60,821 nucleotides of DNA from Dialister micraerophilus DSM 19965 (GCF_000194985.1 NZ_GL878519.1:883898-944718), one strand, 5' to 3'; counted from the stretch's first letter, positions 18,286 to 55,967 are shown. The notes: generated by a model from the sequence alone, not told the origin. Translations and numbers: made by a program.

Positions 18286-18422
18286 GATTGCATAAATGTG
18301 AAAACACAGTTTAAAGTTTTATAAAAGCTTGTGTGATAGATTTATTGGATTTTTTATGCATAAAATATTACTATATAAACATAATGTAGAATAAATATTC
18401 GTTTAATATTGAGGTGTATTCA

Positions 18423-20864
18423 ATGCGAGCGGAACAAAGTAAATTTTTCGGTGATTTGTTGGAAAAGAATAAAAGAATTTTTAAAGTGCCTGTTTATCAA
18501 AGAAATTATGATTGGTCAGGTGAACAATGTGAAAAATTATATAAAGATATTATGTCGGCAAGTAAACGTAATCGTCAGCATTTTACGGGAACTGTAGTAT
18601 ACATAACGGATGTCGACAGGGGCAGCGGATTGAATGAAGTTTTGATAATTGACGGACAGCAAAGAATAACGACGGTTTATATTTTATTGAAGGCTTTGTA
18701 TGAGAGTTCCGAAAATGTATCTTATCGTATTGAATCCGAATTGAAAGATGTTATGTTTAACAGAAATTGTGATGATAAGTACAAGGTTAAGTTGAAGCCG
18801 GTAAAATCGGATAATGAGCAATTGCAACTTTTACTTAAAAATGAAATTGAAAAAATGAACAAAAATTCAAATGTTTATAAAAACTTTGTTACGTTTAAAC
18901 GTTTGATAGAAGAAACCGTTTCGGAGGGTTTTGAGTTAAGTGATATTTTAGAAGGAATAAAAAAGCTTGAAATTGTAGAAATTATTTTAGATAAAAATCA
19001 GGGCGATGAGCCGCAAAAAATTTTTGAATCTATAAACTCTACCGGTTTGGAATTGAGTTTGGCCGACTTGGTAAGAAATTACTTGCTTATGGACGATAAG
19101 AATCAAGATGAGTTGTATTCAAAATATTGGGTGGAATTGGAAAAGAATGTAGGATATGAAAATTTAAGAAATTTTATAATAAAATTTGTCGATGCTCAGG
19201 TGAAAAATTCGGTCAACAGTAAAAATGCATATGATTTATTTAAAAAACATTGTGAAAATAATAAGTTGACGCATGAAGATGTATTGTTCAAATTGGAAAG
19301 AACTTCAAAGTGTTATGGTGCTTTTGCAGGTGCAAATCAATTTTACAGTAAGCGAATTCAAGACGATTTACGTGCTTTTTGTGCGATAAAGCAAACAACA
19401 GTTTTGCCTTTGATTTTTAAGATTTTTGATGATTTTGAAGACGGAAATATTAATGAATACGAAGTTTGTAAGGTTTTGGAATATTTATTTACATACATTC
19501 TTCGTGTTATCGTGTGTGAAACGGGTAAGGGTTTAAGCGGATTTTTCAAATCTTTGTATTCAAGGGTTATTAAAGATGATTTTGTTAATTATTCCGAAAA
19601 ATTTATAGGGTTTTTGAACGGAGTGAATTCACAGAACAGAATTCCTTCGGATGAAGAGTTCAGAGAAGCTGTTATTCATAAGCCTTTATACAATAATAAA
19701 CACGTATGCAGATATATTTTATCCGTTATAGAAAATTCATCCAAAGAAAAAATAGACTTGAAGAATTTAACGATTGAGCATATTCTTCCTCAGAAAGAAA
19801 ATTCTCGGATTTGGAGAAAAGAAATAGGTGAAGATTACGGCAGAGTTCGTGAAACGTACCTTCATACATTGGGAAATTTGACAATTACCGGATATAACAG
19901 TGAGTTGGGGACGAAACCTTTCAAAGAAAAGAAGAAAATTATAAGTGAACATTCCAAGGCAAATGTTTTGAATGAAAAAATTCTTGATGTAGATACGTGG
20001 AATGAAAAAAATATATTGAGGAGAGCGGAATCTTTATCTGAAAAGTTAATATCCATGTATCCTTATGTAGGGAGCAGTGTCGATGTTTTCACAAAAGATG
20101 AACCTTGTATAGGTATTTCGGAATATTATGATTTTTCGGGTACGACACCCAGCGGATTTTCTTTTATGGGTGAATTTGTAAGGGTTAAAAATTGGGTTAA
20201 TTTGCTGACGGAGTTTATTGAATTGAGCTATGGTTTGGACAGTAGAATTTTGATAAATCTGGCAAATAAAAATTTCATTGTCGAAGGGTGCAGCAGTGTA
20301 TATTTGACTCATGATAAAAGACTCTTGAGAAAACCGAGAGAAATTTTTAACAACGGAATTTTTTATGAGTCGAATTTAAGTGCAAATGCAATTATTTCAT
20401 TTATTAAAGAATTGATTTTAAATATGGACTTGGATCCGGATGAATTTGAAGTTTATCTTGAGAATAAAGATATTGATACAAATAAATCTTTGGAATGGGT
20501 AAATTGGGACAGCGATTTCAATCCTTCTTTCAAGGATGTTGTTGAGTTTGAAATAAAGGGTAAAAGAATAAAACCGGAAAAAGGTAAAAAAGATATTAAT
20601 TTTAAAGATGTATTTATAAAAGTCAACGAGTTTTTGTATAAAGAAAATCCGTTTGTGTATACCGAAAGTAATTTTATTTGGGTGAGCAGTGACGAAAAAG
20701 GTATGACAAGTCCTTATTCACTTGGAGAAAAGGTATATATTGAAACGAACAGATCCAATGAAGTGAATTTTGAAAATATTTCTGCCGTTGCAAAGTTGAT
20801 GGGGTTGGATTCAAAGGATATAAAGTTTTTGTTTAAGGAAAGAGAGCGCAAGGGCAGTAAATAA
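18423..20864 (+). CDS. GmrSD-type type IV restriction protein (DUF262 + DUF1524) with C-terminal tandem domain
   Basis: 813 aa from ATG 18423, six bases after GAGGTG. Domain order: GmrS-like DUF262 with VPVYQRNYDW near residue 25 and the DGQQR nucleotide-binding motif near 77-81; a helical middle; GmrD-like DUF1524 HNH nuclease with His453 in IEHILPQ and Asn485 in LGNLTI, then YNSELG and KPFKEKK; and two related ~105-residue units at about 577-680 and 706-813, each a short beta hairpin (FSFMGE.. / FEIKGK..), helices, and a closing Y-E-[ST]-N-x-S segment. Fused GmrSD enzymes cut modified phage DNA using nucleotide hydrolysis. It is a solitary gene, lower in GC than its neighbours, typical of a mobile defence gene; the target is unknown. 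Confidence 0.85.
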   Translation: MRAEQSKFFGDLLEKNKRIFKVPVYQRNYDWSGEQCEKLYKDIMSASKRNRQHFTGTVVYITDVDRGSGLNEVLIIDGQQRITTVYILLKALYESSENVSYRIESELKDVMFNRNCDDKYKVKLKPVKSDNEQLQLLLKNEIEKMNKNSNVYKNFVTFKRLIEETVSEGFELSDILEGIKKLEIVEIILDKNQGDEPQKIFESINSTGLELSLADLVRNYLLMDDKNQDELYSKYWVELEKNVGYENLRNFIIKFVDAQVKNSVNSKNAYDLFKKHCENNKLTHEDVLFKLERTSKCYGAFAGANQFYSKRIQDDLRAFCAIKQTTVLPLIFKIFDDFEDGNINEYEVCKVLEYLFTYILRVIVCETGKGLSGFFKSLYSRVIKDDFVNYSEKFIGFLNGVNSQNRIPSDEEFREAVIHKPLYNNKHVCRYILSVIENSSKEKIDLKNLTIEHILPQKENSRIWRKEIGEDYGRVRETYLHTLGNLTITGYNSELGTKPFKEKKKIISEHSKANVLNEKILDVDTWNEKNILRRAESLSEKLISMYPYVGSSVDVFTKDEPCIGISEYYDFSGTTPSGFSFMGEFVRVKNWVNLLTEFIELSYGLDSRILINLANKNFIVEGCSSVYLTHDKRLLRKPREIFNNGIFYESNLSANAIISFIKELILNMDLDPDEFEVYLENKDIDTNKSLEWVNWDSDFNPSFKDVVEFEIKGKRIKPEKGKKDINFKDVFIKVNEFLYKENPFVYTESNFIWVSSDEKGMTSPYSLGEKVYIETNRSNEVNFENISAVAKLMGLDSKDIKFLFKERERKGSK

Positions 20865-28867: not shown

Positions 28868-30016
28868 TTATTTGTTTTTACTTGCTTCGCTAAGTTTTTG
28901 TACGTAAAATTTTGTACTTTCACATAAATCTTTACCGTGAGTGAGTAATGCTCCTCCTACGAGGAAAATCGTGTCGTCACCGTAAGTATTTACCATGTCA
29001 TTGAAATTTTGCCACTTCATTCCGCCGGACGGTACGGGGAAGGCTTTTTTCAGATTTCCGATTTCGGTTTCCGTACCTTTTTTTACTGAAATGCAAGTTT
29101 CTTTCGTGAAACCGAATCTTCCTCCGTAACTTGCAAATATCACCGCATCCGCACCCATAATTCGAGTGAGTTTGCCGTAGTAACAATACGGAGAAATTCC
29201 GCAGGAGTCCGATAATGTCCATGCACCGGTGAGTGCAGGATGCATGAATATGGGCTTGTTGAATTTTTTATCGAAAGCCAATTTTTTAATGGCGGGAAAT
29301 CCTACAAGTCCGGCAGATGCCATTACTGCATCAACTCCCATTTCCTGTGACAAAAATGCACGTTCTTCAAATTCGTTTGCATCGGCGGAAATATTTGAAA
29401 CGTAAATGCAATTAAGACCGGTTTCGCTATTTGCTCTTTGCAGGGCATCTACGCAAGCTTTTACACGTTCTTTGAAAGGTGCATAACTTTGATTTATGAG
29501 ATTGTGATCGTCTTTTATAATCGTACATCCGCCTTTTGCCAATTTGTAGACGAGATTTTGAAGCTCATTTATGTTGTATCCTACCGGTTTTATTGCCGAC
29601 ATGAAAATAGGACCGTTTTGTATATTACAAAGTTTTCGTATACCTTCTCGTCCGAATTTGGGACCTTTGTATATTTTGTACATTTCATCCGTCAATGAAA
29701 TATCTTCAAGACGTATATTCGATTTTAAAGATGTATTTCCGAACAATGTATTTAATAATCCTACACATTCACTTTCGCAAATTGAAGAATCATATGAAAT
29801 AGTTGCAAGGAAACAATTGTCGGAAATTTTTTCAAGAGATTCTACATTTCCCAATAAAGTGTTTTCTATGCGAGTGTTTTCTATAAGTGAATAAGGACAC
29901 TCGACAGTTTGTTCCAATGCTGTTGCAAATGCGATGTCCTTTGCTTCGTTGTAGGAATTTGATGAAATTTTGTAAGTTGCCGAAAAACGTTTATTGGCAT
30001 TCGTGTCAAAACTCAT
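28868..30016 (-). CDS. RuBisCO-like protein (form IV)
   Basis: 382 aa, homologous to the RuBisCO large subunit. Aligned to RuBisCO, Lys143 matches Lys175, Lys168 the carbamylated Lys201, Asp170 matches Asp203 and His259 matches His294, but the second Lys of KPK is Val, Glu204 is His171 (KDDH), and the loop-6 Lys is Arg300 in YGGRFGF. Carboxylation of ribulose bisphosphate is therefore excluded. Enolase, isomerase or decarboxylase reactions on other sugar phosphates are known in form IV; KDDH plus YGGRF points away from the Bacillus MtnW group. The start directly follows the stop of the glycosyltransferase gene, whose end contains the RBS AAGGAG. Substrate unknown. Confidence 0.85.
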   Translation of the reverse strand: MSFDTNANKRFSATYKISSNSYNEAKDIAFATALEQTVECPYSLIENTRIENTLLGNVESLEKISDNCFLATISYDSSICESECVGLLNTLFGNTSLKSNIRLEDISLTDEMYKIYKGPKFGREGIRKLCNIQNGPIFMSAIKPVGYNINELQNLVYKLAKGGCTIIKDDHNLINQSYAPFKERVKACVDALQRANSETGLNCIYVSNISADANEFEERAFLSQEMGVDAVMASAGLVGFPAIKKLAFDKKFNKPIFMHPALTGAWTLSDSCGISPYCYYGKLTRIMGADAVIFASYGGRFGFTKETCISVKKGTETEIGNLKKAFPVPSGGMKWQNFNDMVNTYGDDTIFLVGGALLTHGKDLCESTKFYVQKLSEASKNK

Positions 30017-36814: not shown

Positions 36815-38131
36815 TTATACATGGGAAATTTTTACGTTGTTGTGAAATCTCTTTTTGATATAAAAAATTATAATGCCTATAATTGCGACAATTACTCCGT
36901 CACCGATTATACTCCAACCGCAACCGTAAATTGCATAAATGCTATATACTGCGCCGATAAATGCGGAAAAGTTTGTCAGACCGCGTTTGCTTTTCTCTAT
37001 ACCTTCTATTCTTTGCATCGCAGGAACGGAGGCCATGGAAAGTACATAAGGTATAAGGTTTATAGTTACCGCCAAATTAATCAAAATGTTGAACTGATTA
37101 ATCAAAGTTGGACTTATAGTCATCAAAGACAAAACCAGCTGAATGATAAGTACGGTAAAGATAGACATATAAGGAGCGCCTCTTGAAGTTACTTTTTGCA
37201 AGTAATGCGGGAAATGTCCGAGCGATGCCGAATTACGTACGACTTCGGCAATTGTGAATTGCCAAGCAGTTAAAGAAACGAAACATGAAACTACCAACAT
37301 GCAAGAAACGATATGACCGGTAGTATTACCCATCATTGCCGCATAAGCAAGTCCGAAAGGAGCATTTGCACCGATAAGTTCCGTATAAGGTACGATACCT
37401 CCGATAATTGCAGTAGACAAAGTATACATAATACCTGCAAGCAATGTTCCGGATAAAACTGCGATAGGAACGTTTTTTTCAGGATTTTCAACAGCAGAGG
37501 AATTTGCACACGCAGTTTCAAGTCCTAAGAAAGACCAAAGAATAATTGCAATAGAATCTTTCAATGTTACGATAAACGGTAATCCTCTAGGATTCCACGC
37601 CTGCATGTAAGTGTCCATACTGAAAGAAGTGAATCCGAACAAAAGTAATCCTATAATAGGAATCATTACACAAATTACACCTATTGAACCGAAACGTCCG
37701 GTACCTTTTGACCCCAAAAAACTTATGGAAGCCGAAAGTATAAGAACAACTATAGTAGTCAAACAAGATCCTACAGGCGAAAGATTCCAACCGAACACAT
37801 AAGAAGCATAACTTACAACACCTATAGAAATAGCTATATTTGCGATAATAAGAGAAATCGTATAAGTGAAATTGGCAAGGAAATTGCCCAATTTACCGAA
37901 ACCGTACTCCGCATAACCCCCTAAACCGCCGCCTTTTTTGTTGTACATACCGCATTTTGCAAAAGCATAAGCCAAAATAGTAGCTCCCAAAGAAGCCAAA
38001 ATCCAAGCAAATATTGAAATAGTACCTATTTCGGCAAGCTTGGAGGGCAGCAAAATTATTCCCGAACCCATCATATTGATAGCAGTAACGGTAGTCAGCT
38101 GTAAAACACCCATTTTTTTTGCGTTAGCCAT
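36815..38131 (-). CDS. PotE-like amino acid/polyamine antiporter (APC family)
   Basis: 438 aa, twelve helices. MGVLQLTTVTAINMMGSGII and LPSKLAEIGTISI are the N-terminal PotE/CadB signature, followed by AYAFAKCGMYNKKGG, LWSFLGLETACANSSAVENPEKNVP and LTAWQFTIAEV. It is clearly related to the two PotE proteins at 48.3 and 54.7 kb but more diverged from E. coli PotE, and it has no decarboxylase beside it. Probably exchanges an amino acid with a polyamine or another amino acid. RBS AGAAGGATG. Confidence 0.85.
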   Translation of the reverse strand: MANAKKMGVLQLTTVTAINMMGSGIILLPSKLAEIGTISIFAWILASLGATILAYAFAKCGMYNKKGGGLGGYAEYGFGKLGNFLANFTYTISLIIANIAISIGVVSYASYVFGWNLSPVGSCLTTIVVLILSASISFLGSKGTGRFGSIGVICVMIPIIGLLLFGFTSFSMDTYMQAWNPRGLPFIVTLKDSIAIILWSFLGLETACANSSAVENPEKNVPIAVLSGTLLAGIMYTLSTAIIGGIVPYTELIGANAPFGLAYAAMMGNTTGHIVSCMLVVSCFVSLTAWQFTIAEVVRNSASLGHFPHYLQKVTSRGAPYMSIFTVLIIQLVLSLMTISPTLINQFNILINLAVTINLIPYVLSMASVPAMQRIEGIEKSKRGLTNFSAFIGAVYSIYAIYGCGWSIIGDGVIVAIIGIIIFYIKKRFHNNVKISHV

Positions 38132-41056: not shown

Positions 41057-41065
41057 GAATAATAA

Positions 41066-41097
41066 GAGTAACCGATACGATATCGGTTACTCTTTTT
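41066..41097 (+). terminator. First terminator after lysS
   Basis: An 11- to 12-bp stem (GAGTAACCGATA with TATCGGTTACTC), loop CGA, then T5. Confidence 0.9.
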
Positions 41098-41110
41098 GAT
41101 TGCAGAATAG

Positions 41111-41136
41111 GAGTAAGGGAAACCTTACTCTTTTTT
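41111..41136 (+). terminator. Second terminator after lysS
   Basis: An 8-bp stem (GAGTAAGG with CCTTACTC) closed by a GAAA tetraloop and followed by T6; it backs up the first terminator. Confidence 0.85.
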
Positions 41137-41395
41137 GTTTGTGTGAAAATATAATAATCGTGAAATGAATTTTCTGAATTTGATTTTTGCAATTGTGTAA
41201 AAAGATGAAACTAAAACTTTTTTTATATGTATGAATTACATAAATTTATTTTTGAAATTTATACGGATTTTACAATAGAGCATTTCTTTTTGAATAATTT
41301 TAATTTAATTTTCAAATTTTATACATGCATTTGATTGGATTTTGATAAACGGTTTGTATATTGAATAAAGAGAGTTATTTTTAGGAGGATGCGAT

Positions 41396-43240
41396 ATGAG
41401 AAAAACTCAGAAAAAACTTCTTTTGTGCGGTATATTGGCTTGTATGTCCGCTTTGGGAAATGTAGCGGGAATATCCGCTGCGGACATAAGAATTTTACCG
41501 ATAGACACGGCGAAGTTCTGGGCGGGCGCCCGCTTCGACTTTGACGTGGAAGTGGCGACGGAAAAACCGTTGGGAGATGTAAAAATAGAAATTAACGGCA
41601 TTTCAGCGGATAAATTTTTCGAAAAACCGCTTGTAAAAAAAGATTTGGGAAACGGAGTTACTTCTTTCAGAGTAAACGACGTAACTTTCAAGAAACCGGG
41701 TAAAGCCGTTGTAACCGTGAAGGCGGATGAAAACGGAAAAACATACACTGCAAACGCGGATTATTCCGTAGTTTCCGAAAAAGCGAACAAGAAAGCGAAA
41801 AACGTAATTCTCTTCATAGGTGACGGCATGTCGCTTCAGGCAAGACAAATTGCAAGAATTATTTCAAAAGGAATGACGAACGGAAAGTACAATGATTATC
41901 TTGCAATGGAAAAACTTGAAAACAACGCCGTTATTACGACAAGCGGCTACGATTCGCTCGTTACCGACTCGGCAAACTCGGCATCCGCTTATGCCACCGG
42001 ACATAAATCCGTGGTAAATGCAATGGGCGTATATGAAAACTCCACCGAAGATCCTTTTGACGACCCGAAAGTTGAAAACATAGCGGAAATTTTGAAAAGA
42101 ACAAGAGGTATGTCAATCGGTCTTGTAACGACGGCGGAATCAACCGACGCGACCCCGGCCGCAATGGTAGGACATACAAGAAGACGTGCAAATCAGGATT
42201 ATCTTGCAAAAGACTACTTGGAAGACTATCATCGTCCCGATGTAATTTTGGGCGGCGGCTCTCGCAGATACATTCCGAAAGATCTTCCGGGTTCGAAACG
42301 TAAAGACAATATAGATGTAATTGAAGAATTCAAGAAGAAAGGTTACACTTTCGCTTCCGACAAAGAGGAACTTTTGAACGCATCGGGAGATAAACCGCTA
42401 TTGGGACTCTTCCATACATCTACAATGAACGTTTATATCGACAGAGAAATGTTTAAAAATCCGAAAGTTTTGAAAAATTTCCCAAATCAGCCCAACTTAA
42501 TAGACATGACGAAGAAAACATTGGAAATTTTATCCAAAAACGAAAACGGTTTCTTCGCGATGATAGAAGGCGCTTCCATCGACAAACAATTACACGATAT
42601 GGACTGGCACAGAGCTACATATGACACAATCGAATTCGACAAAGCGATAGAATATGCGCGCGACTGGAGTTTGAAACGCGGCGACGATACGTTGATTATC
42701 GTGCTTGCGGACCATGCTCACGGTATTTCCATAAGCGGTACATACCATGAAAAAGACGGCAAGAAAGGCGCCGAAGCGGTACGTATTTATGCAGATTCCA
42801 TATTACCGACATTCAAGGATTTGGACGGCGACGGATTCCCTGAAAATCCCGATCCGGACGTAACTTTGGCGGTACAATACGCAAACCACCCGAGTTACTA
42901 CGAAAACTATCACTTCATGGAAGTTCCTACACCTCCGGCGCTTGCAATAAATGAAACCGTGAAAGAAGCGGTACGTACAGGAGATAAAGTAGAATACAAA
43001 GAAGTATTGCAGGCAAGTTCGAAAGCAAATCCGGCACGCATTCCCTTAGGCGGAAAACCGGAGCTTGTACCGGCAAACATTCCGAAATCAGATCCTCAGG
43101 AAGTGCACTCCGCGGACGACATTCTTCTCAATGCGGGTGGTCCGGGATCCGAATACTTCAAGGGTATGATGGACAACACGGAAGTATTCTTCGGAATTCT
43201 CCGCGCGCTCGGAATAGATGCGAATAAAAACTTAAAATGA
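41396..43240 (+). CDS. Secreted alkaline phosphatase, PhoA family, with N-terminal Ig-like domain
   Basis: 614 aa. A signal peptide (residues 1-28, cut after ISA-A) is followed by a ~100-residue beta-rich domain (about 30-130) and the catalytic domain: FIGDGM, TDSANSASAYATG with nucleophile Ser192, TDATPAA, EGASIDKQLH, ADHAHG and EVHSADD. All zinc and Mg ligands of E. coli PhoA have counterparts. It frees phosphate outside the membrane. Codons are richer in GCG, CGC and GGC than in the neighbours, and the operon contains a secreted CPFC protein and an ABC transporter, so the cluster may be acquired. RBS AGGAGG. Confidence 0.9.
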   Translation: MRKTQKKLLLCGILACMSALGNVAGISAADIRILPIDTAKFWAGARFDFDVEVATEKPLGDVKIEINGISADKFFEKPLVKKDLGNGVTSFRVNDVTFKKPGKAVVTVKADENGKTYTANADYSVVSEKANKKAKNVILFIGDGMSLQARQIARIISKGMTNGKYNDYLAMEKLENNAVITTSGYDSLVTDSANSASAYATGHKSVVNAMGVYENSTEDPFDDPKVENIAEILKRTRGMSIGLVTTAESTDATPAAMVGHTRRRANQDYLAKDYLEDYHRPDVILGGGSRRYIPKDLPGSKRKDNIDVIEEFKKKGYTFASDKEELLNASGDKPLLGLFHTSTMNVYIDREMFKNPKVLKNFPNQPNLIDMTKKTLEILSKNENGFFAMIEGASIDKQLHDMDWHRATYDTIEFDKAIEYARDWSLKRGDDTLIIVLADHAHGISISGTYHEKDGKKGAEAVRIYADSILPTFKDLDGDGFPENPDPDVTLAVQYANHPSYYENYHFMEVPTPPALAINETVKEAVRTGDKVEYKEVLQASSKANPARIPLGGKPELVPANIPKSDPQEVHSADDILLNAGGPGSEYFKGMMDNTEVFFGILRALGIDANKNLK

Positions 43241-43683
43241 CAAAATTTCAAAAAAATATAATTTTACTTTTGCTGACGATACTGTTGCTTCTATGTTTTA
43301 AATTCTCGGCATCCGCGACCGAACTAGAATTCGATGAAATGTATGCGGGATGGTCATCTGGCGCATTAATCTATTCGCAAAAACTCGAAAGTCTGGAAGG
43401 GCGTGAAGTCACCGTTACGGGGTACATGGCTCCGCCGCTTACACCGACAATTCGATTTTTCGTACTGACGGAAGTGCCCATGGCAATCTGTCCCTTTTGC
43501 AGCAGCGACGCTGATTGGCCGGACAATATTATCGTAGTTAAAGTACAGAATTCGATTACCGCACTTCCCTATGACGTACCGATTTCCGTAACCGGAACTT
43601 TGGAAATAGGAAGTGAAATAGATTATGAAACCGGATTCGTCAGTCAACTCAGGATAAGAGCATACGATATTTCTACATATTGA
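43237..43683 (+). CDS. Secreted protein with CPFC motif, DUF3299-like
   Basis: 148 aa. A signal peptide or membrane anchor (residues 1-28, ending SASA-T) precedes a small beta-barrel-like domain: LEGREVTVTGYMAPPL near residue 52, then FFVLTEVPMAICPFCSSDADWPDN with a CxxC. Its layout resembles DUF3299 proteins, which often accompany LolD/FtsX-type ABC transporters. The two Cys may bind a metal or form a disulphide. It starts inside the stop of the phosphatase gene (ATGA overlap), so the two are made together. Exact function unknown. Confidence 0.65.
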   Translation: MTKFQKNIILLLLTILLLLCFKFSASATELEFDEMYAGWSSGALIYSQKLESLEGREVTVTGYMAPPLTPTIRFFVLTEVPMAICPFCSSDADWPDNIIVVKVQNSITALPYDVPISVTGTLEIGSEIDYETGFVSQLRIRAYDISTY

Positions 43684-43703
43684 TGAAAGGAAAGGAGAAA
43701 CTC

Positions 43704-44369
43704 TTGATTGAAGTAAGTAATTTGACTCGTACATTCTCCGATTCTTCGGGATATGTGGTAAAAGCCTTGTTGGTTAAAGAGTTCAAGCTGGAAAAAGGAG
43801 AAAAAACGGCACTCATAGGACCGTCGGGAAGTGGAAAAACAACTTTTTTGCACTGTCTTTCCGCTCTCCTTTCTCCGACATCCGGAATTATTCTCATCGA
43901 CGGACGAAGCGTAGAAACGATGACAAGCAAAGAAAAAGAAAAATGGCGCGCGACATTCGTAGGATATATATTTCAAAAAGCACTTCTGATTCCGTATCTA
44001 AACGTTTATGAAAATATTTCTCTTTCTGCGGAGATGGCGGGAAAAAAGAAAACGAAAAAAGAAATAGAAAATTGGCTTGAGAAAGTAGGACTTGAAGGTT
44101 ACGGAAAAAGAAAACCCTCCGGACTTTCCGGAGGAGAACAGCAACGAGTTTCATTCATTCGCGCAATTATTAAAGAGCCGAAACTTATTCTTGCGGACGA
44201 ACCCACCGCATCGCTTGATATGGAAAACGGTCGCATTCTTATGAAACTGCTTCTCGATTATCAAAAAGAAAGTGAATGCATGCTCATATGTGCGACTCAC
44301 GATCGACAAGTGCAAAAATATTTTTCTCGTAAATTTGTTTTGGAAAGAGAGCGTGTACCATGTACCTGA
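43704..44369 (+). CDS. ABC transporter ATP-binding protein (LolD/MacB type)
   Basis: 221 aa from TTG at 43704, which has AAAGGAG at six bases; earlier in-frame codons overlap the previous stop and that RBS. Walker A GPSGSGKTT, signature LSGGEQQR, Walker B LILADEP and the switch His in ATHD are intact. The sequence is of the MacB/LolD class, whose permeases move lipoproteins, peptides or other substrates by mechanotransmission rather than classical import. It overlaps the permease by ten bases. Confidence 0.9.
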   Translation: MIEVSNLTRTFSDSSGYVVKALLVKEFKLEKGEKTALIGPSGSGKTTFLHCLSALLSPTSGIILIDGRSVETMTSKEKEKWRATFVGYIFQKALLIPYLNVYENISLSAEMAGKKKTKKEIENWLEKVGLEGYGKRKPSGLSGGEQQRVSFIRAIIKEPKLILADEPTASLDMENGRILMKLLLDYQKESECMLICATHDRQVQKYFSRKFVLERERVPCT

Positions 44370-45538
44370 AATTGGCATTCCTTTCTCTTTGGCGCCGCGC
44401 ATTGAAACATTGCATAATACTTTTCTTCATTGCTGCGGTCACGGCTCTCCCCGTTTTTCTTTTACAAATGACAGGCGGTTTGTATCGCGGAATTAATCGT
44501 GCGGTCGAACCGTTTCCCATTATAGCCGGATCGAAAGGTTCGGCTTATCAGCTTGTATTGAGTACGGTGTTTTTAAAAGACAGACCTTTAGGAAACATTT
44601 CTTATAAAACCGTTGAAGATATAAGAAAAAGCGGAAAAGCTCATGCGGTTTATCCTTTGGCGTTCGGCGACAACTATCGCGGATTTCCTATCGTAGGCGT
44701 AGAAAAAGAAATTTTTCAATACAAACCCGATTTGCAAAAAGCACCGTGGCTTACAATTGAAAACGGAAAAATTTTCTCCGAAAAAAGAGAAGTCGTTTTG
44801 GGAAGTGAAGCCGCACGTCTTTCCGGTCTTAAAATCGGAGATACTTTCGCATCGATACACGGAATTGCGAAAAAAGGCAAAAAACATGCCGGTGAAAATA
44901 AAGTGGCCGGGATACTGGCTCCCCTCGGAGGTCCTTACGACACTGCAATTTTTACCGATATACGCGATGTGTGGGAAGTTCATCATTTGCCAGCATGGAT
45001 GGAAAAAGGTGAAGTCACCGCGCTTCTGATTCGTCCCGAAGGTTACAAAGAAGCGATGCAACTTTTAGCCGAATATCAAAATAATAAAGAAGTACAACTT
45101 GTATTTCCTTCTCAACCGGTTATTTCTTTGTACCATACAATAGGACAAAGCAAGGAGTTTTGGGAAATTCTGATTGCATTTCTTATAACGTTTTGCATTC
45201 TTATTACACTTTCGGTAATGTACTTAAACGGTAAAAACAGAGTGCACGAATTTGCTCTCTTGAAAGCTTTGGGTGCCGGAAACGAAGGCATCGTGAAAAT
45301 TGTTATCGGAGAACAGGCGATTCTTCTTTTCGTCGGATCGGTTCTAGGTTGGCTCGGTGCATGGGCGGCGACTTTGCTTGTTGCTCATATGATTTCAAAT
45401 GAAGCGGCGATTGTTATGGACACGTCTCCGCTTTGGCAGGGAATGCTTGTAATTCCGATTATGACAATTTGCGGAACTTTGGCAAGTTTCGTTCCCGCAT
45501 TTTTTATCAAAAACAAAGAACTGTCTTCTTATTTGTAA
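44360..45538 (+). CDS. ABC transporter permease, FtsX/MacB type
   Basis: 392 aa, four helices: one N-terminal (about residues 17-38), then an extracytoplasmic domain of ~230 residues, then three helices in the C-terminal third with LLKALGAGNEGIVKIVIGEQ, the FtsX coupling region. It pairs with the ATPase encoded just upstream. In other bacteria such pairs with DUF3299-type secreted partners are linked to zinc handling; here that is only a hypothesis, supported by the zinc enzyme at the head of the operon. No terminator recognised after it. Confidence 0.85.
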   Translation: MYLKLAFLSLWRRALKHCIILFFIAAVTALPVFLLQMTGGLYRGINRAVEPFPIIAGSKGSAYQLVLSTVFLKDRPLGNISYKTVEDIRKSGKAHAVYPLAFGDNYRGFPIVGVEKEIFQYKPDLQKAPWLTIENGKIFSEKREVVLGSEAARLSGLKIGDTFASIHGIAKKGKKHAGENKVAGILAPLGGPYDTAIFTDIRDVWEVHHLPAWMEKGEVTALLIRPEGYKEAMQLLAEYQNNKEVQLVFPSQPVISLYHTIGQSKEFWEILIAFLITFCILITLSVMYLNGKNRVHEFALLKALGAGNEGIVKIVIGEQAILLFVGSVLGWLGAWAATLLVAHMISNEAAIVMDTSPLWQGMLVIPIMTICGTLASFVPAFFIKNKELSSYL

Positions 45539-46024
45539 AGAGGCTGTTTTGTAAATTCAATATTAAAAAGCTCGCATCGCATATGAATTTATCGTGAAAA
45601 GAAGAGTGCATAAAAATAATAAAATAAAGTATACCGTATGAATTAAAATTGAGAATAACTATAACTCTTAAGTTATGTAAAGAAACAATTTCAACCGATA
45701 TTTATTAAAACAAGATTATCAAAAATGTAAGTAACGGCACTGTCGGAGGGAGAAAAGGATGTTTTTTAAAATTTGCAATGCATAGAATGTTATTGCGATG
45801 ATTAAATCATAATGAATTTCTATTGATTATATTTATACACCGTTTGTATTGTCTTTATTGTAATAAAAATAAAAGATGATTAAAAAGCAATATTTAAAAG
45901 TATTAGTCAGGGGGTGATGATTTATGATATTTTAAGTACAGATGAGGTTTTCAGAAAACTCTTAAGAAAGTCTTATCTGTTTTATGCGCATAAAATATGG
46001 TGTTTTATTTCAAGGAGGAGTACG
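45539..46024. other. 486-base leader region before the first speF
   Basis: A/T-rich with no full gene. Two tiny frames have good ribosome binding sites: an eight-codon frame at 45759-45785 after GGAGGG, and a three-codon frame at 45924-45935 after AGGGGGTGAT, which matches the ideal Shine-Dalgarno in nine of ten bases. The speF frame itself is open back to 45914, so an N-terminal extension is also possible. Confidence 0.5.
45759..45785 (+). CDS. Possible leader peptide of speF (8 aa)
   Basis: ATG at 45759, eight bases after GGAGGG, encodes MFFKICNA and a TAG. It lies 240 bases before speF. Short upstream peptides control E. coli speF through ornithine-induced ribosome arrest; no real sequence match to that peptide can be claimed, so this is a candidate by position and RBS only. 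Confidence 0.25.
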   Translation: MFFKICNA

Positions 46025-48208
46025 ATGAAAAAATTGAAATTGTCCTACTCGGATAAAGCTCGCGAATTGTTTGAAATTAGAACAGCACGTGAAATCGTTG
46101 ATTTAGCTAAAACCGACTTTTTGGACATTGCAACAATTATCATCACAGCTGATGATGAAGCTTTGTTGAAACCGGCAGTTGCAGAATTTAAGATTCCGGT
46201 ATTCTTGATTGCAGAAGAAGGAAAACCAATTTCTGATGAATTATTGTCAAAAGTTTTCCGCGTAATTGACTTGGATAAATCCGGAGTTCAGTTCTACAAC
46301 GACCAGATTGAAAATGCGGCTACAACATATGAAAACAAACTCTTGCCGCCATTCTTCAAAGCATTGGTGGACTTCGTTGAAGCAGGTTTCGGTAACTATG
46401 CTACACCGGGTCACCACGGTGGACAATATTTCTGTAAGCATCCGTCAGGAAAAGCTTTCGTTGATTTCTTTGGGGAAAACCTTTTCAGAGCAGACTTAAG
46501 CTCCTCTGACGTTCAGATGGGTGACCTCTTGATTCACGAAGGTGCTCCATGTGATGCTGAACAGTATGCAGCCAGCGTATTTAAAGCTGACAAGACTTAC
46601 TTCGTATTAAATGGTACTTCAGGCTCCAACAAGGTTGTATTGAATGCAGCTATCGCTCCAGGCGACATCGTTCTTTACGACAGAAACAACCATAAATCAA
46701 TTTCTCAGGGGGCTTTGGTACAGGCAGGCGCTATTCCGGTATTCTTGGAAGACGCTCGTAACCCGTACGGCTCCATCGGTGGTATCAAGAGTCACTGCTT
46801 CGAAGAAGACTACATTCGTAAGCTCATTGCCGAAAAAGATCCGGTAAAAGCTAAGGAAGAACGTCCGATTCGTATCGCAGTTATTCAGCTCGGAACATAT
46901 GACGGATGTATCTACAACGCTCGTCAGGTAGTAGATCGTATCGGTCACCTCTGTGACTACATCCTCTTCGACTCTGCTTGGGTAGGATATGAACAGTTCA
47001 TTCCGATGATGAAAGACTGCAGCCCGATGCTCTTGGAACTCGGCCCGAATGACCCTGGTATTTTCGTAACTCAGTCCGTTCACAAACAGTTGGCAGGTAT
47101 TTCAATGGCATCTCAGATCCACAAGAAAGACCGTCACATTAAGGGACAGGACCGTTACATTCCGCACAAACGTGTAAACAACGCATTCATGCTTCACGCA
47201 TCCACATCACCGTGCTACCCGATCTTCGCATCCTTGGACGTAAACGCTAAGATGCACGAAGGCAAAGCCGGAATTCGTATGTGGGTAGATACAGTTAAGA
47301 ACGCAATTGAAGCTCGTAAGGCTGTATTGCGTAACTGCAAGTACGTTCGTCCGTTACTCCCGAAAGAAGTATATGGCAAGAAATGGGAAGACGGCGACAC
47401 CGAAAAGATGGCAAACGACTTGGAATACTGGAAACTTACACCGGGTGCTAAATGGCACGGATTCAAAGGCTACGGCCAAGATCAGTACTTTGTAGACCCG
47501 ATGAAACTTCAGTTCTTGACAGCAGGTATCAACATCGAAACAGGCGAATATGAAGAAAACGGTGTACCGGCTAACGTTATAGCCAACTACCTCCGTGAAA
47601 ACGGAATTATTCCGGAAAAGACGGACTTGAACGCAGTTCTCTTCGTTCTTACACCGGCTGAAACCAAGTCCAAGATGGATGACTTGATTGCTAAGCTCGT
47701 TCGTTTCGAACAGTTGTACGAAGCAGATGCTCCGATGGAAGAATTACTTCCGAACATCTATGCAGCAAACAAGGATGTTTACAAAGGATTCACAATTAAG
47801 ATGCTCTGCCAGAAGATGCACAACTTCTACAAAGACAGAAAAGTTAACGTTCTTCAGGAACGTCTCTTCCACGCAGACTACTTACCTGAATGGGCAATGA
47901 CAGCTCAGCAGGCAAACTTCGAATTCGTAGCTAACCACGGCGAATTGATTCCGTTGGATCAGGCTCAAGGCAGAATCGCATTGGAAGGTGCGCTCCCGTA
48001 CCCGCCAGGAATTCTGACAATTCATCCAGGTGAAAGATGGTCTGAAACATGTGTTAACTACTTCCTTGCATTGCAAGAAGGTATTAACTTGTTACCGGGC
48101 TTCACACCTGAAATTCAGGGTGTATACCTCGAAACTGAACCGGACGGAAGCAAGAGAGCTTACGGCTACGTTTTGAAGAAAGAATATGACCCGAAATTCC
48201 AGAAATAA
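46025..48208 (+). CDS. speF: Ornithine decarboxylase, inducible type (copy 1)
   Basis: 727 aa, PLP fold-I decarboxylase of the SpeF/SpeC/CadA family; near-colinear with E. coli SpeF. An N-terminal wing domain (1-105) precedes the catalytic core with PGHHGGQYF, FNGT-like FVLNGTSGSNK, FDSAWVGYEQF and the PLP Lys354 in SVHKQLAG; the C-terminal domain closes with LPYPPGILTIHPGE and LLPGFTPEIQGVY. It turns ornithine into putrescine plus CO2, using up a proton. ATG 46025 follows AAGGAGGAG; the open extension to 45914 is not used in relatives. potE follows. Confidence 0.94.
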   Translation: MKKLKLSYSDKARELFEIRTAREIVDLAKTDFLDIATIIITADDEALLKPAVAEFKIPVFLIAEEGKPISDELLSKVFRVIDLDKSGVQFYNDQIENAATTYENKLLPPFFKALVDFVEAGFGNYATPGHHGGQYFCKHPSGKAFVDFFGENLFRADLSSSDVQMGDLLIHEGAPCDAEQYAASVFKADKTYFVLNGTSGSNKVVLNAAIAPGDIVLYDRNNHKSISQGALVQAGAIPVFLEDARNPYGSIGGIKSHCFEEDYIRKLIAEKDPVKAKEERPIRIAVIQLGTYDGCIYNARQVVDRIGHLCDYILFDSAWVGYEQFIPMMKDCSPMLLELGPNDPGIFVTQSVHKQLAGISMASQIHKKDRHIKGQDRYIPHKRVNNAFMLHASTSPCYPIFASLDVNAKMHEGKAGIRMWVDTVKNAIEARKAVLRNCKYVRPLLPKEVYGKKWEDGDTEKMANDLEYWKLTPGAKWHGFKGYGQDQYFVDPMKLQFLTAGINIETGEYEENGVPANVIANYLRENGIIPEKTDLNAVLFVLTPAETKSKMDDLIAKLVRFEQLYEADAPMEELLPNIYAANKDVYKGFTIKMLCQKMHNFYKDRKVNVLQERLFHADYLPEWAMTAQQANFEFVANHGELIPLDQAQGRIALEGALPYPPGILTIHPGERWSETCVNYFLALQEGINLLPGFTPEIQGVYLETEPDGSKRAYGYVLKKEYDPKFQK

Positions 48209-48237
48209 TCTGAATTTTAAGTGTTAAAATATCTGAT

Positions 48238-48260
48238 GATCCGGCCGAAAAGGCCGGATC
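48238..48260 (+). other. Intercistronic hairpin between speF and potE (copy 1)
   Basis: GATCCGGCC and GGCCGGATC form a perfect 9-bp GC-rich stem with loop GAAAA and no T run. It probably stabilises or processes the shared mRNA, or tunes the ratio of the two products, rather than ending transcription. Confidence 0.6.
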
Positions 48261-48289
48261 GGAAGATATATATAAGGAGATTTTATATC

Positions 48290-49600
48290 ATGGCAGAAGC
48301 TAAAAAGATGAACGTTGTACAGTTAACGATTATCACTGCTGTTAATATGATGGGTTCAGGTATTATCATGCTCCCGTCCAAGTTGGCACAGGTAGGTGGA
48401 TTGTCAATTGTATCTTGGTTGGTTACAGCAGTAGGTTCCACATTATTGGCTTACGCATTCGCAAAATGCGGTATGTACAGTAAGAAAGCCGGCGGTATGG
48501 GTGGATATGCTGAATATTCATTCGGAAAATCCGGTAACTTTATGTGTGGTTTCACATATGGTATTTCATTAGTTATTGCAAACATTGCTATCGCTATATC
48601 CGCGGTTGGTTATGGCTCTACATTCTTAAATATTACATTAGACCCGATTAGCACATGTATAGCAACAATTGCAGTACTTTGGATTACAACACTTGCAAAC
48701 TTTGGTGGTGCAAGCATTACAGGTCGTATCGGCTCAGTAACAATTTGGGGCGTTATCGGACCGATTTTCGCTATATCTATCTGTGGATGGTTCTTCTTCT
48801 CCGGAGATCAGTACGCAGCTAACTGGAACTACAACAACTTGCCGCTCGGAGAAGCAGCAGTTAACGCTATTACAATGACACTCTGGTCCTTCTTGGGATT
48901 GGAATCTGCATGTGCAAACGCAGATGCAGTAGAAAACCCGGAAAAGGCAGTTCCGATGGCAGTTCTTATCGGTACAATGGGTTGTGCAGTTGTATACATC
49001 GTTTCAACAAACGTTATGTTCGGTATGCTTCCGGCAACAGAACTCGTTAAGAGTAACGCTCCCTTCGGATTGGCATTTGCTACAATGTGGGGCGGAGTTG
49101 CAGGTAAGACAGTAATGGGATTGATGACATTAGCATGTATCGGTTCCTTACTCGGCTGGCAGTTCACAGTTGCAAACGTTTTCAAGGGATCTGCAGATGT
49201 AGGATACTTCCCGAAGGTATTTACAGAAGTTACTTCCGCAGGTGCGCCGATTAAGGGTATGATTATCCTCGGTATCGTTCAGACACTTTTGGCTTTGATG
49301 ACAATCAGCCCGAGCTTGAATGAACAGTTCGAACAGTTGACAAACTTGGCAGTTATTACCAACTTGGTTCCGTACATCATGTCTATGGCGGCAGTATACG
49401 TAATCATGAAGACAGCCGGCAAGAGTGGAACAAGCGAAATGAGCAAGTCCATGGTTGCAGCAGTTCTCGGTGTAATCTACAGCTTGTACGCTTGCTACGC
49501 ATCCGGATTCGAAGCTATGACATACGGTGCATTGGTTACCTTCTTAGGCTGGCCATTCTACGGATTCATTGCAGACAGATTCGAAATGAAAAAAGACTAA
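48290..49600 (+). CDS. potE: Putrescine/ornithine antiporter PotE (copy 1)
   Basis: 436 aa, twelve helices. MNVVQLTIITAVNMMGSGII, LPSKLAQVGGLSIVSWLVTAVGS (shown here in part), AKCGMYSKKAGGMGGYAEY, LWSFLGLESACANADAVENP and the closing FLGWPFYGFIADRFE match E. coli PotE nearly block for block. It exports putrescine and imports ornithine, so that with SpeF it removes one proton per cycle from the cytoplasm. ATG 48290 follows TAAGGAG; the in-frame extension upstream contains the hairpin and is rejected. Confidence 0.94.
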   Translation: MAEAKKMNVVQLTIITAVNMMGSGIIMLPSKLAQVGGLSIVSWLVTAVGSTLLAYAFAKCGMYSKKAGGMGGYAEYSFGKSGNFMCGFTYGISLVIANIAIAISAVGYGSTFLNITLDPISTCIATIAVLWITTLANFGGASITGRIGSVTIWGVIGPIFAISICGWFFFSGDQYAANWNYNNLPLGEAAVNAITMTLWSFLGLESACANADAVENPEKAVPMAVLIGTMGCAVVYIVSTNVMFGMLPATELVKSNAPFGLAFATMWGGVAGKTVMGLMTLACIGSLLGWQFTVANVFKGSADVGYFPKVFTEVTSAGAPIKGMIILGIVQTLLALMTISPSLNEQFEQLTNLAVITNLVPYIMSMAAVYVIMKTAGKSGTSEMSKSMVAAVLGVIYSLYACYASGFEAMTYGALVTFLGWPFYGFIADRFEMKKD

Positions 49601-52364: not shown

Positions 52365-54554
52365 GTGACGCATTTGAAAATTGCCTACACTGAAAAGGCT
52401 CTCGAATTATTCGGAGCTGTATGTGGTCGTGAAACTGTTGACATTGAATCGACTGATTTTACTGATGTGGCAGCAGTAGTACTTACTGATAGAGATGCAG
52501 ATGCACTTAAGACTCATAAGAAGATTGGCGCATTCGACATCCCTGTATTCTTGATTAGAACCGGTAGTGAAAATGTCAGTGATGAAGTAATCGGAAAGGT
52601 ATTCCGTGTAATTGACTTGAAGGAAACCGATCATGCTTTGTTTGAACGTCAGATTATCAGTGCTGCTGATAATTATGAAGCTAACATTTTACCGCCGTTC
52701 TTCAAAGATTTGAAAAAATATGTTGAAAACGGATATGCTCAGTTTGATTGCCCAGGCCATCAGGGCGGTGCATTCTACCGTAAGCATCCGGCCGGACGTG
52801 CTTTTTATGATTTCTTCGGCGAAAACACATTTAGAGCCGACCTCTGCAACGCAGACGTTGCTATGGGAGACTTGCTCATTCATGAAGGTCCTGCTTGCGC
52901 AGCTCAGAAACACGCTGCAGCTGTATACAACGCAGACAAGACTTACTTCGTATTGAACGGTACATCAAGCTCCAACAAGGTTGTATTGAATGCAGCTTTG
53001 GCTCCGGGCGACATCGTTCTTTATGATAGAAATAACCACAAATCTATCGACCATGGTGCTTTGGTTATAGCAGGTGCAACTCCGGTATATCTGGAAACTG
53101 CTCGTAACGCATTCGGCTCCATCGGTGGTATTTTGGAACATTGCTTCAATGAAGAATACATTCGTAAGCTGGTTGCTGAAAAGGATCCGGTAAAAGCTAA
53201 GGCTAAACGTCCGATTCGTTTGGCAGTTATACAGCTCGGTACATATGACGGCTGTATTTACAACGCTCGTCAGGTTGTTGACAAGATCGGTCACCTCTGT
53301 GATTACATTTTGTTCGACTCCGCTTGGGTAGGATATGAACAGTTCATCCCTATGATGAAGGATTGCAGCCCGTTGCTCCTCGATTTGGGACCGGAAGATC
53401 CGGGTATCTTCGTAACTCAGTCTGTTCACAAACAACAGGCCGGTTTCTCTATGACATCACAGATTCATAAGAAAGACCACCATATTAAGGGTCAGGCTCG
53501 TTACATTCCGCACAAACGTTTGAACAATGCATTCATGATGCACGCTTCAACATCTCCGTTGTACCAGCTCTTTGCAGCATTGGATGTAAACGCCAAGATG
53601 CATGAGGGTAAAGCGGGAAGAGAATTGTGGGCAGAAGCTGTCAAGACAGTTATTGAAACACGTAAACAGGTATTACGTAACTGCCACTACATCCGTCCGC
53701 TCGTTCCGCCGGTAGTTTACGGTAAGAAGTGGGAAGACGGCGACACCGAAAAGATGGCAAACGACATTAATTACTGGGCATTTGAACCCGGCGCTAAATG
53801 GCACGGATTTGAAGGCTACGGTAAAGGTCAGTACTTCATCGACCCGATGAAATTACAGTTTGTAACTTGCGGTATTGACATTGAAAACGGCGGATATGAA
53901 GAATTCGGTATCCCGGGCAACATTCTTGCAAACTACCTCCGTGACAACGGAATTATTCCGGAAAAATGTGACTTGAACGACATACTGTTCCTCATGACTC
54001 CGGCAGAAGACAAGACAAAGATGGACGACCTCGTAGCTAAACTCGTTCGTTTCGAAAAATTGGTTGACGAAGATGCTCCGATGTCCGAAGTATTGCCGAC
54101 AGTTTACAAGAACAATGAAGACAAGTACAGAGGATACACAATCCGTCAGATTTGTCAGGAAATGCATGACTTCTACAAAGACAGAAAAGTATTCACTTTG
54201 CAGAAGAAGTTGTTCTTGAAAGACTACTTCCCTGAATACGTAATGACACCACAAGTAGCACAGTATGAATTCATGCGTGCACACGGTGAATTGGTAGACT
54301 TGGAAGAAGCTGAAGGAAGAATCGCATTGGAAGGTGCTTTACCGTATCCGCCAGGAGTACTCTGTGTACACCCGGGTGAAAAATGGTCAAAGACCGCTTG
54401 CACATACTTCCTTGACTTAGTTGAAGGTATCAACATGTTGCCGGGATTCGCACCGGAAATTCAGGGCGTATACGTTCAGATGGGTGAAGACGGCAAGAAG
54501 CACGCATACGGCTATGTATTGAAGAAAGAATGCGAAAAGAATTTCGTAAAATAA
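52365..54554 (+). CDS. speF: Ornithine decarboxylase, inducible type (copy 2)
   Basis: 729 aa, colinear with copy 1 and with E. coli SpeF. CPGHQGGAFYRKHPAG, LCNADVAMGDLLIHEGPA, FVLNGTSSSNK, FDSAWVGYEQF and the PLP Lys356 in SVHKQQAG are present, and in several of these blocks copy 2 is nearer to E. coli SpeF than copy 1 is. It produces putrescine from ornithine. It starts with GTG at 52365 after GGGAGG. The two copies are clearly diverged along their length, so this is not a recent duplication. Confidence 0.94.
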   Translation: MTHLKIAYTEKALELFGAVCGRETVDIESTDFTDVAAVVLTDRDADALKTHKKIGAFDIPVFLIRTGSENVSDEVIGKVFRVIDLKETDHALFERQIISAADNYEANILPPFFKDLKKYVENGYAQFDCPGHQGGAFYRKHPAGRAFYDFFGENTFRADLCNADVAMGDLLIHEGPACAAQKHAAAVYNADKTYFVLNGTSSSNKVVLNAALAPGDIVLYDRNNHKSIDHGALVIAGATPVYLETARNAFGSIGGILEHCFNEEYIRKLVAEKDPVKAKAKRPIRLAVIQLGTYDGCIYNARQVVDKIGHLCDYILFDSAWVGYEQFIPMMKDCSPLLLDLGPEDPGIFVTQSVHKQQAGFSMTSQIHKKDHHIKGQARYIPHKRLNNAFMMHASTSPLYQLFAALDVNAKMHEGKAGRELWAEAVKTVIETRKQVLRNCHYIRPLVPPVVYGKKWEDGDTEKMANDINYWAFEPGAKWHGFEGYGKGQYFIDPMKLQFVTCGIDIENGGYEEFGIPGNILANYLRDNGIIPEKCDLNDILFLMTPAEDKTKMDDLVAKLVRFEKLVDEDAPMSEVLPTVYKNNEDKYRGYTIRQICQEMHDFYKDRKVFTLQKKLFLKDYFPEYVMTPQVAQYEFMRAHGELVDLEEAEGRIALEGALPYPPGVLCVHPGEKWSKTACTYFLDLVEGINMLPGFAPEIQGVYVQMGEDGKKHAYGYVLKKECEKNFVK

Positions 54555-54561
54555 TAGATAA

Positions 54562-54578
54562 TACGAAACGATTTCGTA
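54562..54578 (+). other. Small hairpin after the second speF
   Basis: TACGAAA and TTTCGTA form a perfect 7-bp stem with loop CGA, eight bases after the stop codon. Confidence 0.5.
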
Positions 54579-54601
54579 AAATATAGAAAGATGCACATTC
54601 A

Positions 54602-54627
54602 TGCTGCTCGGTGAGAGCCGGGCAGCA
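54602..54627 (+). other. Intercistronic hairpin between speF and potE (copy 2)
   Basis: TGCTGCTCGG and CCGGGCAGCA form a 10-bp GC-rich stem (one G-U pair) with loop TGAGAG. It has the same position as the hairpin in the first module but a different sequence, and no T run directly after it. Confidence 0.6.
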
Positions 54628-54656
54628 CGAATTGTTTTTTAAAGGAGATTTAAATT

Positions 54657-55967
54657 ATGTCTGAAACTAAAAAGATGAGCGTAGGACAATTGACAATTAT
54701 TACTGCTGTTAACATGATGGGTTCCGGCATTATCATGCTCCCGTCCAAGTTAGCACAGGTTGGCGGTTTGTCAATTGTATCTTGGGTAGTTACCGCTGTA
54801 GGTTCCATGCTTTTGGCATTTGCATTCGCAAAGTGCGGTATGTACAGTAGAAAAGGCGGCGGAATGGGCGGCTACGCTGAATACGCTTTCGGAAAATCCG
54901 GTAACTTTATGTGTGGATTTACATATGGTATTTCCTTGGTAATTGCAAACGTTGCTATCGCTATTTCAGCGGTTGGTTACGGCTCTACATTCTTTAATAT
55001 TTCATTGGATCCGCTTATGACATGTCTTGCAACAATTGCAGTTTTGTGGGTGACCACATTGGCCAACTTCGGTGGTGCAAGTATCACCGGACGTATCGGC
55101 TCAGTAACAATTTGGGGTGTTATCGGACCGATTTTCGCTATTTCCATTTGCGGTTGGTTCTATTTCTCAGGAGATCAGTATTCAGCTAACTGGAATTACA
55201 ACAACTTGCCGATAGGCGAAGCTGCAGTAAATGCTATTACAATGACACTCTGGTCCTTCTTGGGATTGGAATCTGCATGTGCAAATGCGGACGCAGTAGA
55301 AAATCCTGAAAAATCCGTTCCTTTTGCAGTATTGGCAGGAACACTTCTTTGTGCAGTTGTATACATCGTTTCAACAAACGTTATGTTCGGTATGCTTCCG
55401 GCAACGGAAATTGTCAAGAGTAATGCGCCTTTCGGATTAGCATTTGCTACAATGTGGGGCGGAGTTGCAGGTAAGACTGCAATGGCTCTTATGACAATTG
55501 CCTGCATCGGTTCTTTACTCGGCTGGCAGTTTACAGTAGCCAACGTATTCAAAGCATCTGCGGATGAAGGATACTTTCCGAAGATATTCTCAAAAGTAAG
55601 CAGCAACGGCGCTCCGATTTCAGGAATGATTGTTTTGGGCATAATTCAAACATTGTTATCCTTGATGACAATCAGCCCGAGTTTGAATGAACAGTTCGAA
55701 CAGTTGACAAACTTGGCAGTTATTACAAACTTGGTGCCATACATTATGTCCATGGCAGCAGTATTGATAATTATGAAGGTCGCAAAACGTAGCGGCGGTG
55801 AAACATCCAAAGCTATGGTAGCTGCAGTTTTAGGAATTATTTACAGCTTGTATGCATGCTATGCATCCGGATTTGAAGCTATGACATATGGTGCATTGGT
55901 TACATTCTTGGGCTGGCCTTTCTACGGATTTATTGCAGATAAATTCGAAATGAATCACGAAGAATAA
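54657..55967 (+). CDS. potE: Putrescine/ornithine antiporter PotE (copy 2)
   Basis: 436 aa, the same length as copy 1 and very similar in every block (VGQLTIITAVNMMGSGII, AKCGMYSRKGGGMGGYAEY, LWSFLGLESACANADAVENPE, FLGWPFYGFIADKFE). Differences cluster in loops and near the C-terminus (KVAKRSGGETSK against KTAGKSGTSEMSK). RBS AAAGGAG. It forms a two-gene acid-resistance/polyamine module with the second SpeF and ends in a terminator. Confidence 0.94.
   Translation: MSETKKMSVGQLTIITAVNMMGSGIIMLPSKLAQVGGLSIVSWVVTAVGSMLLAFAFAKCGMYSRKGGGMGGYAEYAFGKSGNFMCGFTYGISLVIANVAIAISAVGYGSTFFNISLDPLMTCLATIAVLWVTTLANFGGASITGRIGSVTIWGVIGPIFAISICGWFYFSGDQYSANWNYNNLPIGEAAVNAITMTLWSFLGLESACANADAVENPEKSVPFAVLAGTLLCAVVYIVSTNVMFGMLPATEIVKSNAPFGLAFATMWGGVAGKTAMALMTIACIGSLLGWQFTVANVFKASADEGYFPKIFSKVSSNGAPISGMIVLGIIQTLLSLMTISPSLNEQFEQLTNLAVITNLVPYIMSMAAVLIIMKVAKRSGGETSKAMVAAVLGIIYSLYACYASGFEAMTYGALVTFLGWPFYGFIADKFEMNHEE

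Follow-up and report, generated by a model that had tools for sequence, protein, structure and literature searches.

How exported zinc enzymes acquire their metal in the cell envelope is still largely an open question. Alkaline phosphatase (AP) is a textbook zinc enzyme and catalyses a key step in phosphorus recycling. In Dialister micraerophilus DSM 19965, an AP gene is followed by three genes, which encode a second exported protein, here called D, and the ATPase and permease of an ABC transporter (Table 1). What could such a transporter do for a phosphatase? The sequence-only reading of this DNA had proposed that an envelope system supplies or handles the metal of the enzyme or, alternatively, moves a phosphorylated substrate for it. 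The genes lie in a stretch of 60,821 nucleotides (GCF_000194985.1 NZ_GL878519.1:883898-944718), which we call the window and from the first letter of which all positions are counted. The best reading of the cassette is that of a system of the Zrg type with alkaline phosphatase as its client.

Table 1. The four-gene cassette and its upstream region (positions in the window)
Feature	Position	Strand	Product size	Basis or remark
Intergenic region 5' of AP, presumed promoter	41057..41395	+		no significant Pho box
AP gene	41396..43240	+	614 aa	PF00245 E 4e-74; 1alk alignment; subfamily profile
D gene	43237..43683	+	148 aa	63-member alignment, AlphaFold, Foldseek, hhalign
ABC ATPase gene, LolD/MacB type	43683..44369	+		ABC_tran 2e-35; LolD model 9e-52
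Permease gene, MacB/FtsX type	44360..45538	+		FtsX PF02687 3.5e-14; AlphaFold; fold matches; residue conservation

The four open reading frames were found where the earlier reading had placed them, overlapping or nearly touching on the same strand. The AP and D genes overlap by 4 bp, the ATPase and permease genes by 10 bp. D and the ATPase gene either overlap by 1 bp or are about 20 bp apart, depending on the start of the latter: the candidates are an ATG at 43683 and a TTG at 43704, which stands behind AAAGGAG and is likely the true start. The four genes are one unit. Their fixed order recurs in scores of genomes, and the layout is therefore far beyond chance. The codons of the unit, which had been claimed to be richer in G/C than the surroundings, are not distinctive. 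GC3 of the AP, D, ATPase and permease genes is 0.45, 0.41, 0.34 and 0.37, respectively, with a window mean of 0.35; adjacent genes, at 39554, 45914 and 48221, are equally GC-rich (0.40, 0.46 and 0.44).

Some other genes of the window are recorded here in passing. Positions 28868-30016 on the minus strand of this 1.28 Mb genome encode a protein of 382 aa that resembles the RuBisCO large chain (PF00016, 3.5e-29) and is probably a RuBisCO-like protein. Two tandem pairs of an Orn/Lys/Arg decarboxylase and an amino-acid permease, plus a third such permease, are found at 36815-38131, 45914-49600 and 52365-55967; we read them as repeated acid-resistance or energy modules. A GmrSD-type restriction endonuclease (PF03235 and PF07510) is encoded at 18414-20864.

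The first gene of the unit had been taken for that of a zinc enzyme, and rightly so. Its product belongs to the PhoA superfamily, has a Sec-type signal and, when aligned to 1alk, keeps every catalytic residue and metal ligand of E. coli PhoA. D143, S192, D251, T253, E391, D396, K397, H400, D439, H440 and H571 are invariant in 32 members, and the residues corresponding to the catalytic serine and to the zinc and magnesium ligands of PhoA are invariant among them. An N-terminal domain comprises approximately residues 30-130 and carries the motif PIDxAKFxxGxxFDFxVE; an insertion, DxDGDGFPxNPD, is also present. A subfamily profile gives no less than 693 bits to members and no more than 270 to other APs; none falls between, so that the long subfamily of the enzyme is clearly set apart.

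D has a Sec-type signal peptide, in keeping with the export proposed before, and the CxxC motif that had been noticed, here C85-P-F-C88. The CPFC is invariant throughout the D family, and an alignment of 63 members reveals MAPPL, FFVLT, D91 and W94-P95 as further conserved elements. The supposed likeness to DUF3299 proteins has a mixed record. Neither Pfam nor NCBIfam has a family for D, and the gathering score of PF11736 is not reached; even the intermediate form in one Bacillota locus (L106), a CPFC lipoprotein here called D', attains 18.6 bits at a cut-off of 22 (E 0.002). A search of the PDB with the D profile by sequence yielded chance matches only, to designed repeat proteins, and the motif GACIHVPPPP-N-Q of DUF3299 is replaced by CPFCxxDADWPxxI. 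The likeness stands, however, in profile-profile comparison and in structure. Against nine DUF3299 proteins hhalign reports a probability of 73% (E 3.1e-5). The AlphaFold model (pLDDT 92) is an OB fold. In the PDB it is matched best by 4hsp, the structure of PA4066, which is a DUF3299 protein (Foldseek E 1.7e-6, the next one 5e-4), with a Z of 11.0 and an rmsd of 3.3 over 114 aligned residues. Profile and model thus support the assignment of D to the OB-fold proteins of the DUF3299 superfamily.

The CPFC invites another thought: it resembles redox motifs and is never lost in the family, so D might be a thiol-disulfide protein that folds AP, with the ABC genes as unrelated helpers. An OB fold, however, is not a thioredoxin fold, and the mature AP of the window does not contain a single cysteine; the same holds for 41 of 79 APs. 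D as a disulfide catalyst was rejected on these grounds, and the whole explanation is hardly credible.

In Rhizobiales, the D proteins (L071-L073, L075, L078, L080-L085, L089, L091-L097) have twin-arginine signals, while the APs of the same operons are mostly of the Sec type. Such consistent signals are confined to the Rhizobiales loci and are not a general trait. They suggest that there D may be exported in folded form, perhaps with its metal.

The last two genes do encode a transporter of the LolD-FtsX type, as had been claimed; the match of the ATPase to the LolD model stays under the equivalog cut-off. The permease model (pLDDT 93) has a large periplasmic domain, and its fold matches MacB, LolE, HrtB and a pneumococcal MacB-like transporter. 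The periplasmic domain displays D104, H167-G168, H176, D194 and W205-x-x-H208. D104, H167, H176 and H208 are identical in 24/24 aligned permeases, be they AP-linked, AP-less (Bacillota) or linked to ZrgA/DUF3299 (Pseudomonadota), and several of the DUF3299-linked ones adjoin genes for ZrgA (PF10986), for CobW and for a Zur-like regulator of the Fur family, which is the gene set of the zinc-starvation system ZrgABCDE or PA4063-PA4066. The motif is missing from the five other FtsX permeases in the genome of the window. Directly after H208 follows a hypervariable loop with 14.2% His, compared to 1.65% elsewhere; 38 of 71 such loops contain at least three His. The window permease keeps the invariant residues, but its loop is short and lacks a long His-rich stretch. 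Very long repeats rich in His, Asp and Glu occur in L028, L050, L072, L106, L110 and L126, reaching dozens of HAHDDHHHDD-like units in the case of L110. The permease thus belongs with those of ZrgABCDE, a zinc system linked to Zur, in one family.

These data bear on two other readings. The transporter could move a phosphorylated substrate, as had been offered as an alternative, or the dephosphorylated product of AP. A co-regulation by phosphate in relatives (see below) would fit. The permease, however, is of the MacB mechanotransmission type and not of an importer fold, and its invariant residues are common to zinc-linked relatives that have no phosphatase. The earlier alternative thus found no support, and transport of this kind is very improbable. 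Somewhat better, yet still decidedly unlikely, is a role like that of LolCDE or MacAB, in which the transporter detaches AP from the inner membrane, or assists the exit of AP or of another molecule, e.g., a metallophore, from the cell. The fold matches to LolE, MacB and HrtB speak for it, and so does the proposal that PA4064/65 exports pyochelin-cobalt (PMC11481552). A scan, however, revealed no consistent lipobox on AP or D, and such a box was rejected for both; no recurring partner gene is seen near the cassette, and the invariant His and the His-rich loop would be left unexplained. Moreover, the cassette also occurs in loci of Peptococcaceae and Anaerolineaceae, groups that are usually single-membraned.

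How far does the cassette reach beyond this strain? Sixty related genomes were surveyed. D is present in 16, every one of which keeps the order AP-D-ATPase-permease on one strand, as far as the fetched pieces extend. For a wider search of genome contigs, a query with the permease only gave no relatives, and the D profile was then used. It yielded 517 relatives, of which 80 loci were kept. AP lies directly 5' of D in 79 of these 80, and ATPase and permease genes follow 3' of D wherever the contig extends far enough. The loci belong to Negativicutes, Synergistaceae, Rhizobiales, Taylorella, Alcaligenaceae, Planctomycetota, Anaerolineaceae, Limnochordaceae and Peptococcaceae (metagenome-assembled genomes with their taxonomy as titled), i.e. 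to at least five phyla. In evenly drawn samples, strong D matches were found in 5/398 Bacillota and 10/299 Pseudomonadota, and the four-gene order was kept in 5/5 and 10/10, respectively. The existence and the spread of the cassette are thereby established, and the idea that the operon might not be conserved beyond the strain clearly fails. When the pairwise distances of the four proteins are compared across 68 loci, the correlations are 0.82-0.94; shared ancestry contributes to them. No widely common flanking gene and no extra conserved neighbour was found around the cassettes, which marks the cassette itself as the unit. A family of small proteins is encoded near seven cassettes (L031, L044, L045, L046, L049, L051, L052), 27 to 5555 bases away; one member has a Tat-like signal and, for the stretch tested, no Pfam match.

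The dependence is one-way. Canonical D is almost never found without AP, the only exception among the kept loci being L077, where D-ATPase-permease has no adjoining AP. AP, in contrast, is often alone: members of its subfamily have neither D nor the transporter close by in 9/18 Pseudomonadota and 4/9 Bacillota of the samples and in 6/22 relatives. That about half of the genomes with AP lack the module argues against an essential role; the module looks like an accessory to AP rather than an absolute need. In Megasphaera-like relatives (L098-L103) an AP 67-70% identical to that of the window is present without D and transporter, and the module has apparently been lost in this one genus.

The strongest sign that AP is the client is the repeated association with different APs. 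In one pseudomonadotal locus (L145) the AP is of another subfamily (29% identity) and the order of the cassette is kept. A Bacillota locus (L108) has yet another AP (34% identity) in the order AP-ATPase-permease-D'. In L146 a D-like OB protein lacking the CPFC directly precedes an AP; a transporter was not found there. Bacillota also contain a module without AP, with a CPFC lipoprotein that has an extra C-terminal domain (L109 4620-5417, L111 4657-5448, L112 4503-5309). In L109 and L111 it adjoins cobalamin genes; this B12 neighbourhood is considered incidental, since L112 lacks it.

The promoters of the relatives tell when the cassette may be used. In Rhizobiales, a Pho box, CTGTCAT-N4-CTGTCAT with at most 3/14 mismatches, stands 5' of AP in 15/19 loci, as compared to 0.7% of shuffles; in most cases it lies 57 to 77 bases ahead of the AP start. 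Negativicutes have TTNACA repeats with a sharp period of 11 bp, a layout which we take to be that of the Bacillus Pho box; 12 of 31 loci reach at least 13/15, other periods 0-1. A weaker excess of such repeats is seen in Synergistaceae and others. In the window itself the best 11-bp TTNACA repeat scores 11/15 and is not significant (p 0.31 against shuffles), and PhoU finds no match in this genome. A response to zinc limitation, considered earlier, is not supported. The relatives' promoters carry Pho boxes, and a consensus scan of 73 loci detected no consistent Zur-like site 5' of the cassette; a Fur scan likewise gave nothing consistent.

Regulation also bears on another explanation, namely a zinc importer like ZrgABC that is merely co-expressed with AP. 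Zinc would enter the cytoplasm, D would be a binding partner, and the rationale would be that an abundant external zinc enzyme depletes zinc. That permease and D fall into the zrg superfamily is in line with it, and so is the support of V. cholerae growth at low zinc by zrgABC. Yet the cassette has no ZrgA-type binding protein, its promoters show Pho and not Zur boxes, the genome of the window already has a ZnuA-family binding protein, and the association is with AP, divergent APs included. Nor is an ion path across the membrane known for MacB-type folds. A mere importer is therefore unlikely.

We consider it about an even chance that a Zrg-type metal-handling system serves the exported zinc phosphatase by the route outlined below and is used, in relatives, at phosphate starvation. 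The service is probably the supply of zinc; metal, direction and any effect on AP activity are inferred. The synteny, the Zrg-family permease with its invariant His and Asp and the His-rich loops, the fold of D, the linkage to divergent APs, the conserved zinc ligands of AP, the Pho boxes of relatives and the need for zrg at low zinc all argue for this view. To be counted against it are the genomes with AP alone, L077, the AP-less module of Bacillota and the short loop of the window permease. E. coli PhoA, moreover, is not known to need a helper of this kind, export of pyochelin-cobalt has been suggested for PA4064/65, and zrgE, the D-like gene, has no knockout phenotype in V. cholerae (PMC9820375). 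What had been proposed from the sequence thus survives as an envelope metal system for AP, carried by synteny, Zrg kinship, D fold and divergent APs, and weakened by the frequent solitary AP.

The route might be as follows. AP would be exported by its Sec signal in unfolded, metal-free form. The periplasmic domain of the permease would gather zinc, often through a His-rich loop, and hold it at a site made of H167, H176, H208 and probably D104, residues whose invariance is observed. Binding and hydrolysis of ATP by the ATPase would move this domain, as in MacB, LolCDE and HrtBA; here the fold agrees and the motion is an analogy. D, with its OB fold and CPFC, would carry the metal or hand it on to AP, an enzyme that requires two Zn and one Mg ion. 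We infer zinc as the metal, its transfer to AP by way of the permease and D, and the drive by ATP. In relatives, phosphate starvation would switch the cassette on, if the Pho boxes, seen as sequence, are what they look like, and much apo-AP would then have to be metallated. The cassette should be most important under zinc shortage, and this would explain why some genomes keep AP alone.

The four-gene block thus points to machinery dedicated to the metal supply of the phosphatase during phosphate shortage. A stricter version, which we regard as possible but tentative, is a dedicated ATP-driven metallation machine that loads zinc into AP outside the cytoplasm. Its parts would be a mechanotransmitter of the MacB fold, which has its His site in the periplasm, and an OB-fold carrier with CPFC; the Zrg systems would be cousins that load other clients instead of being importers. 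In either form, the coupling of AP to a transporter of a zinc family links phosphate starvation with metal supply, and the ill-understood Zrg/PA4063-4066 family gains a defined candidate client and residues to mutate. The literature searched, in which subscription journals are thinly covered, contains no description of an AP-D-transporter cassette, in agreement with the earlier statement that none was known.

How does the cassette compare with known systems? E. coli PhoA has the superfamily, all catalytic and metal ligands and Sec export in common with the AP described here. The latter differs by its length, with the extra N-terminal domain and the insertion, and by being part of a four-gene cassette, whereas PhoA is not encoded with a transporter of this type. 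PhoA is not known to need such a helper.

MacB, LolCDE, HrtBA and FtsEX combine the same permease fold with a LolD-type ATPase. The invariant H167, H176 and H208 and the His-rich loop set the cassette permease apart as a separate family. Compared with MacB-TolC, the MacB fold is there, but no MacA, TolC or lipoprotein client was recognised among the conserved neighbours.

Closest in its parts is the zinc-starvation system ZrgABCDE of Vibrio or PA4063-PA4066 of Pseudomonas aeruginosa; zrg is needed for growth of V. cholerae at low zinc (PMC9820375). It likewise has a split MacB-type transporter of a LolD-like ATPase and an FtsX permease, the latter with the same invariant Asp and His, and a periplasmic OB-fold DUF3299 protein. 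In the cassette, however, AP takes the place of ZrgA/PA4063, and no ZrgA (PF10986) is found among the four genes. D has CPFC where DUF3299 has CxH, the gene order differs, zrgD is absent, and the relatives display Pho boxes, not the Zur boxes of ZrgABCDE.

The closest working analogy is NosDFY/NosL, which serves nitrous oxide reductase. In NosDFYL-NosZ, too, an ABC transporter and a small periplasmic metal partner stand beside the exported metalloenzyme which they mature. The protein families are different, the metal is copper instead of (probably) zinc, and NosD is absent here, so that the comparison remains an analogy. The chaperone NosL is needed only at low metal, and an ample supply makes it dispensable (PMC7558416), which matches the genomes that keep AP alone.
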